Shown here: positions 12,765 to 27,567 of the stretch, piece by piece | Layout: the number at the start of each line of letters is the position of its first letter | Numbering within the stretch: position 1 is the stretch's first letter | Translations under genes and position numbers: made by a program | IMG/VR virus record: IMGVR_UViG_3300017917_003582 | Location: 1 to 28,168 of that record | Source of the DNA: a virus | Length of the DNA: 28,168 bases | Reading direction: 5' to 3' (one strand) | Notes under the pieces: model-generated | The model's database searches: none | Seen by the model: the letters and a program-made list of their open reading frames with translations, nothing else | Told to the model about the DNA's origin: nothing

Positions 12765-13808
12765 TTAATTAAAAAATTTAATTATTTTGTCTGTTATATA
12801 TTCGACTTCACTATCTGTAAGTTCAGGGTATATAGGTAAACTTAAAACACCTTTACTTAACATAAAACTTGTACTCATAAAATCAGGTTTGTTTTTTATT
12901 CTGTTAGTTATAGGCAACTCACTTAAAACTTTTTCATAATGAATTTTTACTTCAATTTCTTTACTCTCAAGGAATTTCCTAAGATCGTCACGTTTTTCAT
13001 AATAAATTACAAACTTTTGATCTGCATGGACTGGGTAGTCACTTGAAAGACACCTTATAGGCAGATTTTTGAATCTATCAATATAGAAGTATCTAATTTG
13101 TTTTCTTCTCCATTGCCAATCATCAATGTATTTCGTTTTTACTAATAGTTGAGCACAATCAACTTCGCTCATCCTACTATTAGAACCTATTTGAGTATGA
13201 TATAACCTTTTTCCGTTGTTTTTATAATCAACTATAAATTGATGTAAGTCATAATCATTCGTAACTAATGCACCACCATTACCTGGACCACTCAAATTTT
13301 TAGTAGGATCAAAACTTATTGCCATTCCTATACCAAAGTCTTGAGTATTAATTAACCAATGTTGTGCTCCGTCTATAATATCATTGCTTGTAGGTTTATG
13401 TATTGGAGCTCCATATAAACCTACTTGGCATACATAATTTTCATTTAGTTTATTTTTATTTATAATACCATTTTTATCTGTATCACATAGTATAACGTTA
13501 AACCCAGCCAACAAAAAAGCATTTAAAGTTGCAGGATATGTAAGATTGGGTATTTCTACGAAAGGATCAAAGATTTCATTTTTGCTACATTCTAATTTTA
13601 AGTATTGAGCAACAACTTCAAGTGCTTGTGTACAACTATGTAAAGTAGTTGCATATGTGGCTCCTGTTTTTAATGACAACCATAGTTCAAATTTTTTAGT
13701 AAATTCACCATCAAGGCATATACCTTCACGTAAAGCCCTGTCAGTAGCTTCAAGTAGTTCTTGTTTTAAATGGCTATATTGTTTTTTAAGACCAAAGAAA
13801 GAAATCAT
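12765..13808 (-). CDS. DegT/DnrJ/EryC1/StrS-type PLP aminotransferase
   Basis: 347 residues, close to the usual size (350-400) of nucleotide-sugar aminotransferases. N-terminal MISFFGLKKQY and LDGEFTKKFE match the family start. The PLP site is visible: DGAQHW with D146 and Q149, and the Schiff-base lysine K170 in SFDPTKNLSGPGNGGALV. These enzymes transaminate keto-sugars bound to nucleotides for aminosugar synthesis in O-antigens or antibiotics. The ATG overlaps the radical SAM stop (ATGA). A remnant of a second DegT start lies at 15054-15125. Substrate unknown; a role in surface-glycan modification fits the epimerase and PP-loop protein upstream. Confidence 0.9.
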   Translation of the reverse strand: MISFFGLKKQYSHLKQELLEATDRALREGICLDGEFTKKFELWLSLKTGATYATTLHSCTQALEVVAQYLKLECSKNEIFDPFVEIPNLTYPATLNAFLLAGFNVILCDTDKNGIINKNKLNENYVCQVGLYGAPIHKPTSNDIIDGAQHWLINTQDFGIGMAISFDPTKNLSGPGNGGALVTNDYDLHQFIVDYKNNGKRLYHTQIGSNSRMSEVDCAQLLVKTKYIDDWQWRRKQIRYFYIDRFKNLPIRCLSSDYPVHADQKFVIYYEKRDDLRKFLESKEIEVKIHYEKVLSELPITNRIKNKPDFMSTSFMLSKGVLSLPIYPELTDSEVEYITDKIIKFFN

Positions 13809-15016
13809 AAACTATTTAATAAAGTATACAATTCTAAATTTGAATCTTTTAAAAAATGTTGCCTGTTATTATCTAATATATTATTAAACTTTAGATAATT
13901 TTTTAATTGGTTTTCATTATATTCATTGGTTAGGCATATTTTTTTAAGACTATAAAGTTTATGTTTAAATTGTGTATTCTGAAATTTGCATTTTGATGAA
14001 AGCCAGTTTTCAATTCTTGTCCAACATTTAATTTTATAATATGTAGGTAAATATTTAATATTTAAATATTCAGGAAGTGTCAACATGATAGGATCGATAT
14101 TAACTATTGGTTTTTTAAGTTCATAATTTATTTTTTCAATGTAATCAAAAAGATCAATAATCTTATTCAGGTTACCTATTTGTATAACAGGGGTAACAAT
14201 TAATTTAAAGGTATCATTTTTAATAACCTGTTTAATATTACCATCTATTTTTTCCCAATTACTAGGATATCTTAAGTATTCCTGTATTTCTTTATATCCA
14301 TCTATACTTCCAAAGAAAATAACATTTGAAAAATTATTAAGTAATGAAAAAAATTCTGTATTTAAATTGGTTAAATTAGTATTAAATTTTACAACAACCT
14401 GTTTGCTTTTGCCTATATCAATAAGATATTTAAGAAATTTTTTATTATTTTCATTTAGGGTTGGTTCACCTCCTGTCAAATACAATAATTGAATATTTTC
14501 TACTTGTTCTAGTAGATTATTATTAAATGTATCAGTAAGATACCAATCATTTAAAGTTTGCGAGTTAGCAACATACCAAAATTTTTTTAGGTCGGCATTA
14601 TTAATATTATTTATTTCTTTAGCAATTTGACTGCTAGCAGTAGGATTGCAACTTCTACAACTTAGATTACAAAGATTTCCAAATCTTAAATCAAAATATT
14701 TTATTTTTATTTTTTCAAGTACAGTGGTTTTATTTTCGACAATAAAATTTTGATAAGATAATCTATGACTTATATTAGAGGTTTTTTCTTGTTCGTAACA
14801 ACGTGAGCAACCTTCAACTATCATACCTTGTAACATCTTTTCTCTAATAGTAACGAAGGCTTTGCTGTTATAAATTTCATCTAATTTATCATATCCTAAA
14901 TTAAATTTTGTACCATCTTCTTTAGTTATATAATCGGTGGATACGCAACAAGGTTTAACAGAACCGTCTGGATCAACACTGATATTAATCCACGGTAATG
15001 TGCAAAAAGTTTTCAT
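13805..15016 (-). CDS. radical SAM protein with twitch/SPASM-like N-terminus
   Basis: 403 residues. An N-terminal motif FCTLPWINI...GSVKPCC (C5, C23, C24) and CSRC (C70, C73) resemble auxiliary iron-sulphur cluster ligands of the twitch-type family. The core radical SAM motif C-x3-C-x2-C is CNLSCRSC at C116, C120, C123, followed by TGGEPTLN at about 181-188, the SAM-binding GGE motif. These proteins cleave SAM to a radical; the substrate here is unknown. Similar twitch radical SAM proteins occur, from memory, in marine phages near sugar genes. No good ribosome-binding site precedes the ATG. The coding region is noticeably AT-rich compared with gp32 or MoxR, which could reflect recent acquisition. 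Confidence 0.88.
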   Translation of the reverse strand: MKTFCTLPWINISVDPDGSVKPCCVSTDYITKEDGTKFNLGYDKLDEIYNSKAFVTIREKMLQGMIVEGCSRCYEQEKTSNISHRLSYQNFIVENKTTVLEKIKIKYFDLRFGNLCNLSCRSCNPTASSQIAKEINNINNADLKKFWYVANSQTLNDWYLTDTFNNNLLEQVENIQLLYLTGGEPTLNENNKKFLKYLIDIGKSKQVVVKFNTNLTNLNTEFFSLLNNFSNVIFFGSIDGYKEIQEYLRYPSNWEKIDGNIKQVIKNDTFKLIVTPVIQIGNLNKIIDLFDYIEKINYELKKPIVNIDPIMLTLPEYLNIKYLPTYYKIKCWTRIENWLSSKCKFQNTQFKHKLYSLKKICLTNEYNENQLKNYLKFNNILDNNRQHFLKDSNLELYTLLNSL

Positions 15017-15053
15017 ATTTTATTAAACTCAATATTAATTTAATTTAAACCAT

Positions 15054-15125
15054 TCATAATATAACAGTAATCCTTTTTGAATATTGATTACGATATTGCC
15101 TGTCTTAACCAAAAAAGGGTATCAT
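15054..15125 (-). pseudogene. remnant of a DegT aminotransferase 5' end
   Basis: Starting one base after the stop of the gene at 15127, the frame reads MIPFFG, stop, DRQYRNQYSKR. DegT enzymes of this type commonly begin MIPFFGLDRQY, and the intact copy at 13808 begins MISFFGLKKQY. A single change of TTA to TAA accounts for the stop; homology fades after about 14 codons. The position, immediately behind the PP-loop gene, is where a coupled DegT gene would start. The best reading is a scar left when the original DegT gene was replaced by the radical SAM plus DegT pair. Chance resemblance cannot be excluded over so short a stretch. Confidence 0.55.
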
Positions 15126-15126
15126 A

Positions 15127-16254
15127 TTAGGTAATATATTTGTTTATATTTTCACGTAATGTAATTTTACTAAAATTCTTTTTATAATTATCAAAAACGT
15201 TGCCTTCATTTTTATAATCTGATAATAGTTGTAGGAAGTCCGGTCTATTATATTTAATAATATTTTTTTGTATTATTACATTGAGTGCATTACTTAGTAT
15301 ATCGTCTAATGATAGTTGATTTACAATATCAGTAATTCTTATATCATAAAAAGGACTAAAATGATAATTGTTATCTATATGCCACATCTGGTAATCATAA
15401 TAAACACTTTCATTGCAATGGTCTAACAAATCTTGTTCATTTGTTAGTGTAGGTGCATTATTGATTTTTAATATAGGTCTTTGTAAGAAATGATAGAGGT
15501 AATCTTTACTAGTAGTAATTTCATGTAATTTTTTGCCTACATAGTTAGCAATAGCATGTCCTTGTGTAACTTCTCTAAGTTGTATTCTCTCTGAATAAAA
15601 TCCTGTGATATACCAGTTTTCTTTTGTATAACAACTGGTCAAGTTATAACTCCAAAACTTCTTACTACATAAGTCCATTAAGTCAGATTGATATTCTTGG
15701 TTTCTACCTAAACTCTTAAAAGAACTAGGAACGGGTAGATGGAAATCATAATCGTGCCCTAAACTGTCTACTAAACTCCATACCGTAAGAGTATCTATAC
15801 CTCCAGTGAATAAAACGTTTAGTTTATCTATTTTATTATATTTAAAAAAGTTTACAACATTTTCTCTTAGAACTTCGTTAATTTGTATTGAGGCTTCTTC
15901 TAATGTTATATTTGATTTTCTTTTTATTGATGCTGTGGAACAATTAACTAAATCTAACTTTGGTAAAGGCATATTGGTTTTAATACCTTTTTGGTTTGTA
16001 TATAAAGGAAAACCACGCAATAAAGGATGATATATATCTCCCCTTTCACTAACTATTGCATATTTACCATTTGCATTATAACCATCGATTATTTCTTTAA
16101 CATGATTAGATAAAATGCAATCGGTACTATATCCTTTATACCAATAATTTACATCATTGATTTTTTCACATTTCCAACCTTTATCCAAAAATAAATTTTC
16201 TGTAACTTTATCAACAGACTTAATAGGACATTCTTGACCAATATAAAAAAACAT
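15127..16254 (-). CDS. asparagine-synthetase-like PP-loop enzyme
   Basis: 375 residues from the ATG at 16252-16254, which overlaps the epimerase stop (TAATG) and has GGAGG eleven bases upstream; a TTG extension is less likely. The PP-loop ATP pyrophosphatase motif is LFTGGIDTLT (about residues 148-157), equal to S-G-G-x-D-S in asparagine synthetase. SPFYDIRITDIV near the C-terminus matches the F-P-F-x-D-x-R element of AsnB. The N-terminal 100 residues are shortened and lack the Cys2 nucleophile of glutamine amidotransferases, so it may use ammonia or another amine, as in amide-forming enzymes of sugar or peptide modification. Product unknown; neighbours suggest a glycan pathway. Confidence 0.8.
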   Translation of the reverse strand: MFFYIGQECPIKSVDKVTENLFLDKGWKCEKINDVNYWYKGYSTDCILSNHVKEIIDGYNANGKYAIVSERGDIYHPLLRGFPLYTNQKGIKTNMPLPKLDLVNCSTASIKRKSNITLEEASIQINEVLRENVVNFFKYNKIDKLNVLFTGGIDTLTVWSLVDSLGHDYDFHLPVPSSFKSLGRNQEYQSDLMDLCSKKFWSYNLTSCYTKENWYITGFYSERIQLREVTQGHAIANYVGKKLHEITTSKDYLYHFLQRPILKINNAPTLTNEQDLLDHCNESVYYDYQMWHIDNNYHFSPFYDIRITDIVNQLSLDDILSNALNVIIQKNIIKYNRPDFLQLLSDYKNEGNVFDNYKKNFSKITLRENINKYIT

Positions 16255-17222
16255 TAAGTTTTTAACCTCCAAAACTTACTTTTACATAGCCAATCGTAAT
16301 ACTTTACAAACCCTTCTTCTATATCTACCTTAGGATCATAATTAAAGTCACGACAGGCGCTATCTATATTTAGTGAGCCTCTGCTAGGAAAATTTAAATC
16401 ACGTTCTCTAATTTCTATATCACCTTTTCCTACTATATCAACAATCAATTCAGCAGCATGGTATAAGGTGTGACTAACACCCCTTGTAATATTATAAGTT
16501 TTGTTAAAGGTATAATCAGATAATGATGCACTTACTATTCCATTTGCAACATCATCAACATAAGTAAAATCTAATTCTTCATGAATACCATTAACATAAA
16601 GAATTTGATCATGCATAGCTTGCAAAAAAAATTTACTTAAAACTCTATCAGTTACGTCCAAAGGACCATAAACAGCACTTGGTCTTATAATTGTATAGTT
16701 AAAATTACCTTTTTTAGCGTAATCTTTTACCAACCATTCTCCTGCAAGTTTAAGTATCCCATATTGACCTTCGGGTTGACATACATAATCTTCATTTGTA
16801 TTGTTAATAAAATTTCCATAAACCATACTACTGCTTACATAAACAAACTTTTTTACATTGTTTGTTTTACTTAATTCTAATATATTAAGCAAACCTTGAC
16901 TCATCGTTCTTGATCCCCAAGTCGGGTGTTTATTTACAATTTTTTGTCTAGGAAAACTTGCCATATGTATAACTATATCAAATTTTTGACTTGTAAATAA
17001 CCACTCCATATTTTTCTGTTCACAAATATCAAATTTGTAACAAAAAGGAGTGGTTATTATCTTTTTACGTTCTTTTATCAAATAATCAACCTCATGTTTA
17101 GGAATGATTCCATAGTTTGTTTGCGAATCAACTAAGATTACTGTATGGCATAATTTTTCTAACTTACTTACAATATGGTGACCTATAAATCCTAAACCAC
17201 CTGTGACTAAAATTTTAGTCAT
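16254..17222 (-). CDS. NAD-dependent sugar epimerase/dehydratase
   Basis: 322 residues, extended short-chain dehydrogenase. The NAD-binding motif is GGLGFIG at 8-14. The catalytic set is SSSMVYG (Ser around 131) and Y154-x3-K158 in YGILKLAG. Length and motifs match GalE/RmlB-like enzymes acting on nucleotide-activated sugars. The second half (TIIRPSAVYGP, DFTYVDDVANGI) carries the usual substrate-domain landmarks. It overlaps both neighbours, so it is translated together with the small gene upstream and the PP-loop enzyme downstream. The exact reaction (epimerisation or dehydration) cannot be decided. Confidence 0.92.
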   Translation of the reverse strand: MTKILVTGGLGFIGHHIVSKLEKLCHTVILVDSQTNYGIIPKHEVDYLIKERKKIITTPFCYKFDICEQKNMEWLFTSQKFDIVIHMASFPRQKIVNKHPTWGSRTMSQGLLNILELSKTNNVKKFVYVSSSMVYGNFINNTNEDYVCQPEGQYGILKLAGEWLVKDYAKKGNFNYTIIRPSAVYGPLDVTDRVLSKFFLQAMHDQILYVNGIHEELDFTYVDDVANGIVSASLSDYTFNKTYNITRGVSHTLYHAAELIVDIVGKGDIEIRERDLNFPSRGSLNIDSACRDFNYDPKVDIEEGFVKYYDWLCKSKFWRLKT

Positions 17223-25085: not shown

Positions 25086-25333
25086 TCCATTAACTTTGCC
25101 ATAAGTATAAGCTTTTGCAAATGGTCAATACTTTTTGCTATTTTAATACTAGGCTCCTCAAGCCTATATTGTTTTGTCTGATGCCTGCACTCAGTTTCTA
25201 ATTTCCCAAGTTCACTTACCATTTTTTCAATATTTTGCAACATTTTAAATAGGTCCATGTTGAAGCGAATAGTAGACAAATTTTTTCTAATTTGTTCACA
25301 TTCAGTTCTATAAGTTAGTGCTGACTTTACCAT
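25082..25333 (-). CDS. small coiled-coil phage protein
   Basis: 83 residues, nearly all helix with heptad-like Leu/Ile/Met spacing (MDLFKMLQNIEKMVSELGKL, later IKIAKSIDHLQKLILMAKLM). One cysteine in each half. No known family. There is no free ribosome-binding site: the only AGG lies in an inverted repeat that runs into the start codon. It follows AhpD by 26 bases. Confidence 0.75.
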   Translation of the reverse strand: MVKSALTYRTECEQIRKNLSTIRFNMDLFKMLQNIEKMVSELGKLETECRHQTKQYRLEEPSIKIAKSIDHLQKLILMAKLMD

Positions 25334-25349
25334 ACCTGATTATCAGGTA
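25333..25349 (-). promoter_or_regulatory. palindrome at the start codon of 25082-25333
   Basis: TACCTGAT, one central base, ATCAGGTA. On the mRNA it can fold as a six-pair stem UACCUG/CAGGUA with an AUAAU loop that takes in the AGG and the A of the AUG. It could be a translational or transcriptional operator; no protein partner is known. Confidence 0.45.
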
Positions 25350-25359
25350 GTTATATTCT

Positions 25360-25887
25360 TTACATTGCAATTTTATTAATACTAGCAATTACACTACTAA
25401 TCTTACCTATTGCCTGTAATTGTTGTACAGTTAAACCTTCTTTTTTTAATGTGTCATAATGATTTTTAACACAAAAATGACATTTACCAACAATACTTGC
25501 TGCTAACGCATACATCTCAAATTGTTTCTTTGTTACTCCACCATGATTTGCATATGCATTCATACGTAATCCAGGTGGCAATCCTTTTAGATCAGGATCG
25601 TTACACATCTCAACAAATGGATAGAATACATTATTAATACCCATTAATGCTGCTGCTGTTTTTGCTGCTTCACATTCTTTTGTCCCTGTTAAAACGCCCT
25701 TCATTTGAATATCAAATGCTAGGTCTCCATTATTTGCAGCAATTGCTGCTGCCAATGCACAAGCATGTGCATCGACCTCATCTAAACCACTACGATTCAT
25801 AACACTGTCAAGATTTAATCTGTTATCTTTGCAGTGATCAGGAATACTATTTTTAATCTGATCAACCCAATTAATTTGTTGTTGCAT
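25360..25887 (-). CDS. ahpD: AhpD-family alkylhydroperoxidase / thiol reductant
   Basis: 175 residues (M. tuberculosis AhpD has 177). The catalytic set is E124, C136, C139, H143 in GKCHFCVKNH, with the same spacing (12, 3, 4) as E118, C130, C133, H137 of mycobacterial AhpD. This protein reduces AhpC-type peroxiredoxin disulphides and has weak peroxidase activity. It is preceded by AAGGA and overlaps the TerC-family gene by 17 bases; the matching AhpC-type protein starts the same operon. Presence of both partners argues for a working peroxide-detoxification pair in the infected cell. AhpD in turn needs a host dihydrolipoamide or thioredoxin-like donor. Confidence 0.9.
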   Translation of the reverse strand: MQQQINWVDQIKNSIPDHCKDNRLNLDSVMNRSGLDEVDAHACALAAAIAANNGDLAFDIQMKGVLTGTKECEAAKTAAALMGINNVFYPFVEMCNDPDLKGLPPGLRMNAYANHGGVTKKQFEMYALAASIVGKCHFCVKNHYDTLKKEGLTVQQLQAIGKISSVIASINKIAM

Positions 25888-26542
25888 TCTTTTTTATCCT
25901 TGTCCTATAATATTGTTTACATGTTAATACAAAAGCCATAATAAATGGCAACCCTTTTTCAGACCAGTCGTGCAACGGATCAATATATGTATCAACAAAA
26001 GGTTCGCTAGTAATCATTTTAAATGCCACAGCATATAATACATAAGCACCGATGAAAACACTGTCTGGATACTTTTCTAATAACTTAGCTACCAGTGTGC
26101 TACCAAATAATATGATAGGTACACTAACTAATAATCCAAATATAATTAACCACCAATTGCCACCTGCTGCTCCAGCAATGGCAAGTGCATTGTCAAGCCC
26201 CATTACAGCATCAGCCATAACAATTGTACCCATTGCTCCCCAAAACGTTTCACTTGCTTTTACATCGGTATGGTCCTCATTACTACTTGTTAGTCTCCAT
26301 GCTATATAAATCAATAGTAAACCACCAACTAATCTAAGTCCAGGAATCATTAACAAATAAGTTAGTGCTGCCACACAAATAAATCTTACAGCAACAGCAC
26401 CAAACGTACCGTATATTAATGCTTTCCTACGCATCTCAGGATTTAAATTTCTACTAGCCATTGCAATTACTAATGCGTTCTCACCTCCAAGAACAACATC
26501 AATTAAAACAATTGCTAGTAATGCCCAAATAAATTCAATCAT
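25871..26542 (-). CDS. TerC/YjbE-family integral membrane protein
   Basis: 223 residues with about six to seven hydrophobic segments. The two family repeats are visible: IDVVLGGENALVIAMA (14-29) and MADAVMGLDNALAIAGAA (109-126), each with acidic residues in a membrane helix that likely bind a metal ion. TerC-family proteins are linked to manganese export, metallation of secreted enzymes and tellurite resistance. Placed between AhpC- and AhpD-type genes, a role in manganese balance during oxidative stress is plausible, by inference. The start overlaps the stop of the 44-residue membrane peptide, and the C-terminus is basic. Confidence 0.88.
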   Translation of the reverse strand: MIEFIWALLAIVLIDVVLGGENALVIAMASRNLNPEMRRKALIYGTFGAVAVRFICVAALTYLLMIPGLRLVGGLLLIYIAWRLTSSNEDHTDVKASETFWGAMGTIVMADAVMGLDNALAIAGAAGGNWWLIIFGLLVSVPIILFGSTLVAKLLEKYPDSVFIGAYVLYAVAFKMITSEPFVDTYIDPLHDWSEKGLPFIMAFVLTCKQYYRTRIKKNATTN

Positions 26543-26669
26543 CTTTCTTCTTATCTTTATTTGCTTTATCGTATAGGTAATTTCCTAACATAACTGCCAC
26601 TACGATTGAAATGAAAAATATTAAAAATTTCATTTCATAAACATCCCACAATGTTTCGTATTCAAACAT
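26535..26669 (-). CDS. 44-residue single-pass membrane peptide
   Basis: A small gene between peroxiredoxin and TerC. MFEYETLWDVYEMKF is followed by one membrane helix (FLIFFISIVVAVMLGNYLY) and a charged tail, DKANKDKKKDD. Its ATG overlaps the peroxiredoxin stop (TAATG) with GGAGGAG upstream, and its stop overlaps the TerC start by eight bases. The layout, one helix and a basic tail, fits a small membrane regulator or partner of the TerC protein; no family is known to me. Confidence 0.75.
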   Translation of the reverse strand: MFEYETLWDVYEMKFLIFFISIVVAVMLGNYLYDKANKDKKKDD

Positions 26670-27262
26670 TATAGTGTGTCTCCTCCAATTGGACGACTAC
26701 ATGGGCATAATTCACCAGTCTGTAATGCGTCTAAAATACGTAGTGTTTCATCTGGGTTACGACCAACATCTAAATTGTTTACTGTAACATGTTGAATAAC
26801 ATTATTTGGATCAATAATAAATGTTGCTCTTAATGCTGCTCCAGCTGGTTTATAAAAAATACCAAGTTGTTGAGCAAGGCCCTCATGTTGTACAGTATCA
26901 TATGTTGTTCTCTGGCTATTCCAACGCTCATCTGCTTCACGTGCCGTATCAGCAAACATCCAACTATTTGTTTTCTTCAAATCTTCATGTGCGTTACGCC
27001 ATGCTAACTTACAGAATTCATTATCTGTGCTACCAATCAATAATACAGCATCACGGTCTGCGAAGTCACGGTTTAATTTATCATATGCTACAATTTCTGT
27101 GGGGCATACGAAAGTAAAGTCTTTGGGATAGTATACAATAACTTTCCACTTCCCTTCAAAACTTTTTTCTGTAATTGTTTCAAAAGCATTGTCTGGGGTT
27201 AATGCTCCTGGTTTAACGCCTGTCATTGCGAAGGGTTCTAAAGTATGTCCAACTGTTTTCAT
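26669..27262 (-). CDS. ahpC: AhpC-type 2-Cys peroxiredoxin
   Basis: 197 residues. Peroxidatic Cys53 lies in PKDFTFVCPTEI, and C186/C188 in GELCPC are the resolving cysteines; the C-x-C form is that of mycobacterial AhpC (C174, C176), whose reductant is AhpD. The stretch VGRNPDETLRILDALQ also matches that subgroup. It reduces hydrogen peroxide and organic peroxides. An insertion of roughly 20 residues (AREADERWNSQRTTYDTVQH) lies between the two cysteine regions compared with M. tuberculosis AhpC as I recall it. AAGGAG precedes the ATG. It heads the operon that ends with AhpD. Confidence 0.93.
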   Translation of the reverse strand: MKTVGHTLEPFAMTGVKPGALTPDNAFETITEKSFEGKWKVIVYYPKDFTFVCPTEIVAYDKLNRDFADRDAVLLIGSTDNEFCKLAWRNAHEDLKKTNSWMFADTAREADERWNSQRTTYDTVQHEGLAQQLGIFYKPAGAALRATFIIDPNNVIQHVTVNNLDVGRNPDETLRILDALQTGELCPCSRPIGGDTL

Positions 27263-27314
27263 TTTTTCTCCTTGTGTGTAATAAGTATGTCTAGAACAAT
27301 ATCATGTTCGTTGA

Positions 27315-27321
27315 TATTTAG
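27315..27321 (-). promoter_or_regulatory. possible late-type element upstream of ahpC
   Basis: GCTAAATA on the minus strand, 52 bases before the ATG at 27262. A sigma-70-like pair (TTGCTA, 17 bases, TATTGT) overlaps the same region but matches only four of six at each box. Which, if either, drives the operon is uncertain. Confidence 0.25.
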
Positions 27322-27348
27322 CAAATACTATGGCATAAATTATAAACT

Positions 27349-27567
27349 TTAGTTATCTAAATTTTCACCGCAATGCGGACATCTTTTTGTATCTTTACGA
27401 TGTTGATGTAATACATCTTCCCACTCTTTAATTTCTTTTATTATTTTTTTAAGAGTTCTACGGCAGCGGATAGGTTTGTCTTTTTCTAATTCATCTTTAA
27501 GTCTTTTTCTTAATTGACCTACTCGTTGTTCAAACACACCTAAAAATCCACCCGCTGCGTCACCCAT
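27349..27567 (-). CDS. small helical protein with C-terminal zinc ribbon half
   Basis: 72 residues. MGDAAGGFLGVFEQRVGQL is followed by a very basic helix (RKRLKDELEKDKPIRCRRTL) and a C-terminal CPHCGENLDN. CPHCG is one knuckle of a zinc ribbon; the other pair is missing, so a dimer or the earlier cysteine may complete it. The ATG directly follows the stop of the glycosyltransferase gene with no spacer. DNA or RNA binding is possible; no family recognised. Confidence 0.7.
   Translation of the reverse strand: MGDAAGGFLGVFEQRVGQLRKRLKDELEKDKPIRCRRTLKKIIKEIKEWEDVLHQHRKDTKRCPHCGENLDN

Follow-up and report, generated by a model that had tools for sequence, protein, structure and literature searches.

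A putative oxidative-stress operon of uncultured phages, with a TerC-peptide cassette between ahpC and ahpD

Why should a bacterial virus carry, in a single chain of overlapping genes, two enzymes of peroxide detoxification, a membrane protein predicted to handle manganese and a very small membrane peptide? The question is posed by the linear IMG/VR virus record IMGVR_UViG_3300017917_003582, the whole of which (28,168 bp) is the window analysed here, and in which the genes for AhpC, a 44-residue peptide, TerC and AhpD follow one another on one strand. Many uncultured T4-like bacterial viruses carry the two-enzyme system; in the window and a set of its relatives TerC and the peptide are added to it, and this suggests that oxidative stress in the infected cell is actively managed by such viruses. 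The explanation that we favour, and consider moderately probable, is that of a phage-borne oxidative-stress operon in which AhpC and AhpD would remove peroxide using host electrons, TerC and the peptide would handle metal, and co-expression of all four would keep the infected cell workable. It is based on the catalytic residues and fold of the two enzymes, on the co-occurrence of AhpC and AhpD in 29 out of 29 records and on the characterised Burkholderia pair. The features concerned are the following.

26669..27262, minus strand: AhpC-type typical 2-Cys peroxiredoxin of the AhpD-dependent kind, 197 residues, ATG start (Pfam, nearest structure 2bmx, invariant cysteines)
26535..26669, minus strand: 44-residue peptide with one predicted transmembrane helix, ATG start (hydropathy, homologues, purifying selection)
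25871..26542, minus strand: TerC/YjbE-type integral membrane protein, 223 residues, ATG start (TIGR03717, conserved acidic metal-site motifs)
25360..25887, minus strand: AhpD, a CxxC disulfide reductase, 175 residues, ATG start (TIGR00778, AlphaFold model against 1knc, conserved residues)
27263..27348, minus strand: 86-nucleotide gap 5' of AhpC, with a ribosome-binding site AAGGAG adjoining the ATG (sequence)
25333..25349, no strand assigned: perfect 7-bp inverted repeat shortly after AhpD (sequence)

The overlapping chain of four open reading frames reported in a preliminary description of this DNA was confirmed, all of them lying on the minus strand with ATG starts and the three named families scoring above curated cut-offs. 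Successive overlaps from AhpC through the peptide and TerC to AhpD are 1, 8 and 17 nucleotides. The gap 5' of AhpC is the probable start of the transcription unit, and the inverted repeat may be its end; promoter-like matches in 27263..27348 were no commoner than in shuffled sequence. Pairwise ratios of non-synonymous to synonymous substitution (dN/dS) were mostly 0.04-0.28 for AhpC, AhpD and TerC and mostly 0.07-0.55 for the peptide, for which the estimates are noisy because the gene is short (one pair was near 0.9 and several were saturated). All four genes are under purifying selection, which excludes a chance stacking of reading frames.

An important question is which kind of peroxide reductase the outer two genes encode. 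AhpC matched the Pfam AhpC-TSA model at 80 bits, above the curated cut-off, and its nearest solved structure is Mycobacterium tuberculosis AhpC (2bmx); the model for the AhpF-dependent E. coli-type enzyme, TIGR03137, gave 105.8 bits against a cut-off of 272. The peroxidatic C53 (in an FVCPTE motif) and the resolving C186/C188 (CxC) are invariant in 22 diverse phage homologues. AhpD scored above the curated cut-off of Pfam CMD/AhpD (46 bits) and that of the core-domain model TIGR00778 (33.9 bits against 27.8). Because it fell short of the narrow full-length subfamily model TIGR00777 (110.6 against 191.95 bits, residues 8-171), the window protein is classed no more closely than as a divergent member of the AhpD family, on the evidence of its core domain, fold and residues. 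Its nearest solved structures are those of M. tuberculosis AhpD (1gu9 and 1knc), its AlphaFold model superposes on 1knc with a template-modelling (TM) score of 0.83, and across 19 phage AhpDs E124, C136 and H143 do not vary and C139 hardly does; both the active site (Glu, CxxC, His) and the fold of AhpD are present.

Between them AhpC and AhpD retain all the residues needed for catalysis in the AhpD-dependent peroxide reductase, a system proven for Mycobacterium and Burkholderia. In Burkholderia thailandensis the pair works through C57/C171/C173 of AhpC and C131/C134 of AhpD with SucB, Lpd and reduced nicotinamide adenine dinucleotide (NADH) (PMC6626918), and it is the Burkholderiales that hold the best cellular matches to the phage AhpC, with 64% identity in Cupriavidus. 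AhpC was found in 29 of 50 viral records (33 to 525 kb) and AhpD in exactly those 29. The cysteines and other residues singled out in the preliminary description hold in phage relatives, with C139 nearly invariant, and its assignment of the pair to the AhpD-dependent type agrees with the residues, the nearest structures and the exceptionless co-occurrence in the 50 records. By analogy with close characterised homologues, from which the chemistry would follow, peroxide reduction by the phage pair is well supported. The further claim that the module is self-contained was not borne out, since characterised AhpD takes its electrons from host Lpd and SucB (PMC6626918).

The order AhpC, peptide, TerC, AhpD might have been peculiar to a single contig, a possibility raised at the outset. 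A search of contigs for AhpC-TerC-AhpD neighbourhoods showed that it recurs, on one strand, in 16 other IMG/VR contigs (12 distinct sequences), in 12 of which no other gene lies in between, and a further 14 contigs have AhpC, TerC and AhpD without the peptide. Elsewhere in phages TerC follows AhpD or is convergent with it. Among 64 distinct phage TerC sequences with a neighbourhood that could be judged, 38 have AhpC or AhpD no more than 3 kb away; the 64 were found by similarity to TerC rather than by linkage and are related to one another, so that this is not an unbiased frequency. At least nine changes between the linked and the separate state were counted on the phage TerC tree, and the linkage has therefore been gained or lost repeatedly. 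TerC is thus linked to the pair in several arrangements: between the enzyme genes with or without the peptide, after them and convergent with them. The bacterial loci are different: at 80 loci with the nearest AhpC, AhpD adjoined in 69 and TerC was found within about 6 kb in none, and so the insertion of TerC appears to be phage-specific. Neither AhpC nor AhpD was present in about 1.5 kb on each side of 30 bacterial TerC loci. Possession of the module is not tied to the packaging gene, as the phages nearest by terminase mostly lack the pair (present in one of 10 records).

TerC scored 147 bits with Pfam TerC (cut-off 27.8) and 201.8 bits with the YjbE-type model TIGR03717 (cut-off 134.8), and its acidic metal-site motifs (D15, N22, D111, D117-N118) are invariant in 17 phage TerCs. 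Homologues of TerC export manganese or load it into enzymes that are exported (PMC13274385, PMC10550928), and on that analogy manganese handling by the phage protein is plausible. The peptide has an acidic N-terminus and a lysine-rich C-terminus, and its single span reaches a hydropathy of 2.23 over 19 residues, with no lysine or arginine before it and five after. Homologues occur in at least 19 contigs; in 16 of these the peptide gene immediately precedes that of TerC and the two enzyme genes lie on either side. TerC is kept as the neighbour where other genes intervene (L119, L129, L137). In one contig, L001, TerC is missing and the peptide frame (L001:9844-10011) runs into the TerC start residues MIEF; with AhpC about 90% and AhpD about 87% identical to those of the window, this looks like the scar of a deletion.

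Divergence among relatives separates the operon into two parts. That of the peptide is correlated with that of TerC (r=0.42; 19 of 2000 permutations as high) and that of AhpC weakly but clearly with that of AhpD (r=0.20; 0 of 2000), whereas AhpC-TerC and TerC-AhpD divergence is uncorrelated (r=-0.15 and -0.01) and the peptide-AhpC correlation is not significant (192 of 2000). The operon is therefore a mosaic made up of two units, the AhpC-AhpD core and the peptide-TerC cassette, since divergence is shared within the units and not between them, and the shared divergence together with the retained adjacency points to TerC as the partner of the peptide. A single branch, with a support of 98 in each tree, sets phage AhpC (74 rows) and likewise phage TerC (79 rows) apart from the bacterial sequences; as only the best bacterial matches were sampled, the trees show long residence in phages rather than an exact origin. 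Recent capture from a bacterium is unsupported, the best cellular matches being 64% for AhpC and about 51% for TerC.

It may be envisaged that AhpC, acting through C53 with C186/C188 as the resolving pair, would reduce hydrogen peroxide, organic hydroperoxides and probably also peroxynitrite, and would be re-reduced by AhpD at C136-x-x-C139 with electrons from the lipoyl enzymes of the host (SucB/DlaT, Lpd) and hence from host NADH. TerC, as a YjbE-type transporter of the inner membrane, would export Mn2+, or a divalent metal like it, from the cytoplasm or direct it to proteins bound for export, and the single-span peptide would most likely bind and tune it. Translation of all four from one coupled message would keep the redox and metal balance of the infected cell workable until lysis. 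The metal, the binding of the peptide to TerC, the benefit to infection and a joint protection of the cell by the peroxide and metal parts are what we infer. A precedent of a kind is the yqgC-sodA operon of Bacillus subtilis, which joins a reactive-oxygen enzyme to a membrane protein supporting manganese efflux, although the proteins are unrelated and bacterial (PMC10888875).

Several observations weigh against this explanation. The interval between ahpC and ahpD also accepts genes for which no oxidative role is evident, such as those for class II aldolase and an SGNH-like hydrolase, and adjacency by itself is for that reason weak evidence. Most of the phages found with AhpC and AhpD have no TerC, and in others TerC lies far from the pair. 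The preliminary description had made TerC and the peptide part of the module; the conserved order stands, but with the cassette absent from most such phages and TerC near the pair in 38 of 64 cases it is optional rather than obligatory. There is no TerC structure in the PDB, the predicted model is too poor to use (predicted local distance difference test score, pLDDT, 64) and the metal moved by TerC cannot be read from its residues. A search for Rfam RNAs found no manganese-sensing riboswitch or other Rfam RNA. Finally, peptide homologues were seen for which none of AhpC, AhpD and TerC was found as a neighbour (L230:1161-1304, L231:3001-3144, L243:2980-3105), the second of these about 130 bp from a contig end.

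What else occupies the interval? In relatives it holds genes for class II aldolase, an SGNH-like hydrolase, DUF2061, rubredoxin, EF-hand, DOPA-dioxygenase-like and Na/H-exchanger proteins and nucleases. Phage rubredoxin genes lie between ahpC and ahpD in L062, L064, L065 and L077, and such a rubredoxin is a possible alternative electron carrier. A single-span peptide of 29-30 residues (MKVWLLI...) replaces the peptide-TerC cassette at L002:9924-10013, L004:9912-10004, L005:4971-5063 and L028:1862-1954, and a scan for it returned no contigs beyond these four. A tiny cysteine-rich peptide, MYDFxDYVEYCKxKGCKDCPSIG, is the second of its kind in the interval (L037:10563-10643, L051:10581).

The other is a microprotein of about 23 residues with the consensus M[NST][FY]xExFxYLKxxHCPxC, an undescribed family that is absent from the window (loci L010:9909-10004, L025:9871, L042:10949, L050:10562, L055:11420, L096:2838, L134:7936-8001 and L430-L467). 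A DNA pattern scan for this HCPxC microprotein, run over the whole viral collection and not conditioned on AhpC, gave 38 matches; 32 were coding, and all 32 had AhpC and/or AhpD beside them, as against none of the six that were non-coding for the peptide. The 25 distinct peptides, one chance match still included, have a ratio of non-synonymous to synonymous polymorphism (pN/pS) of 0.21 over 15 core codons. From its sequence, the CPxC pair with the preceding histidine would fit either a glutaredoxin-like dithiol or a metal site. We would tentatively suggest, as something possible though short of probable, that a large uncultured phage lineage keeps the ahpC-ahpD gap specifically for accessory microproteins (the TerC-paired single-span peptide, other single-span peptides and the thiol microprotein) that link a standard peroxide reductase to other cell systems, the last perhaps passing electrons to AhpD/AhpC or binding metal. 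If this is true, few known redox partners would be smaller than the thiol microprotein.

The variety of inserts also invites the strongest rival to the oxidative-stress operon, namely that the functional unit is AhpC-AhpD, with a gap that simply tolerates insertions, TerC and the peptide being unrelated passengers that share only the transcript. The divergence of TerC, which tracks neither AhpC nor AhpD, is in keeping with this, but linkage of TerC to the pair outside the gap (AhpC-AhpD-TerC and convergent) is not what a mere insertion-site effect would lead one to expect, and several of the other inserts, too, encode redox or metal proteins (rubredoxin, CxxC peptides); we regard it as somewhat unlikely. 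A different division of the operon, in which the peptide belongs with AhpC/AhpD, for instance as a membrane anchor for the peroxidase, and other single-span peptides substitute for it in relatives without TerC, draws on L002, L004, L005 and L028, which are among the nearest relatives and have the MKVWLL... peptide between AhpC and AhpD with no TerC there, and on L009, which has a further, different membrane peptide. This we consider unlikely, as the 44-residue peptide co-diverges with TerC, not significantly with AhpC, and adjoins TerC even when apart from AhpC.

The function of TerC might also be another. The TerC proteins MeeF and MeeY of B. subtilis metalate exported enzymes and co-purify with SecDF/SecY (PMC10550928), and a secreted EF-hand protein occupies the same gap in some related phages, from which it could be supposed that the phage TerC is a metal chaperone at the Sec translocon for phage or host exported proteins, any peroxide link being secondary. 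Near the operon, however, the window showed no recognisable exported metalloenzyme, and among the loci listed the EF-hand protein and TerC never share one gap; such a role seems improbable. Tellurite resistance, proposed for TerC genes of Pseudomonas syringae phages (PMC11256456) and implied by the family name, is very improbable here, as the genes annotated in the window include no further ter gene.

The window also encodes a terminase, a single-strand binding protein, a virion protein, thymidylate synthase and dihydrofolate reductase of phage type. Bacterial contamination was rejected on the terminase and virion genes, on the placing of AhpC and TerC in phage clades and on the MoxR/vWA phage genes that come after the module in L035, L037, L115 and L137. 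Two attributes of a viral auxiliary module, residence in genuine viral genomes and maintenance by selection, are seen, in the phage core genes, the phage clades and the purifying selection. Immediately upstream of the operon, 27349-27567 (minus strand) encodes a 72-residue protein with a C-terminal half zinc-ribbon, CPHCGENLDN, which lies beside AhpC or TerC in several relatives. At 12765-17222 (minus strand) is a cluster of aminotransferase-like, radical SAM, asparagine-synthetase-like and nucleotide-sugar epimerase-like genes, assigned partly by eye and probably concerned with surface or sugar modification.

How far is the arrangement new? The AhpC/AhpD systems of M. tuberculosis and B. thailandensis have the same two enzymes and cysteines, with ahpC directly before ahpD on one strand; here the genes are phage-encoded, AhpC belongs to a separate clade and the TerC cassette lies between them. 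The profile score and acidic motifs of TerC are those of TerC/YjbE transporters (B. subtilis MeeF, MeeY and YjbE, Vibrio TerC, E. coli Alx), from which it differs in its phage clade, its coupling to a peptide and peroxide enzymes and the lack of a detected riboswitch. Large phages of P. syringae (M5.1, REC, VCM, phiPsa374 and others) carry a TerC homologue with about 32-40% identity, but their records have no AhpD, and none was found in 50,697 phage records. The ahpC reported in Microcystis viruses is a single antioxidant gene (PMC12542629), whereas the window has a conserved pair with an accessory cassette. A search of open-licence papers found no description of the AhpC-peptide-TerC-AhpD arrangement; with the search of phage records this is consistent with the earlier remark that it is undescribed, as absence of evidence only. 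Viral antioxidant auxiliary genes are known, then, and what appears to be new is the AhpC/AhpD pair with the peptide-TerC cassette between.

A complete AhpC/AhpD peroxide defence is thus widespread and long maintained in environmental phages, though no searched record of an isolated phage has AhpD, and some of these phages combine it with predicted metal handling. Whether oxidative stress limits phage production becomes a testable question, and the system supplies membrane and thiol peptides that are small and defined and lend themselves to direct tests of their partners.
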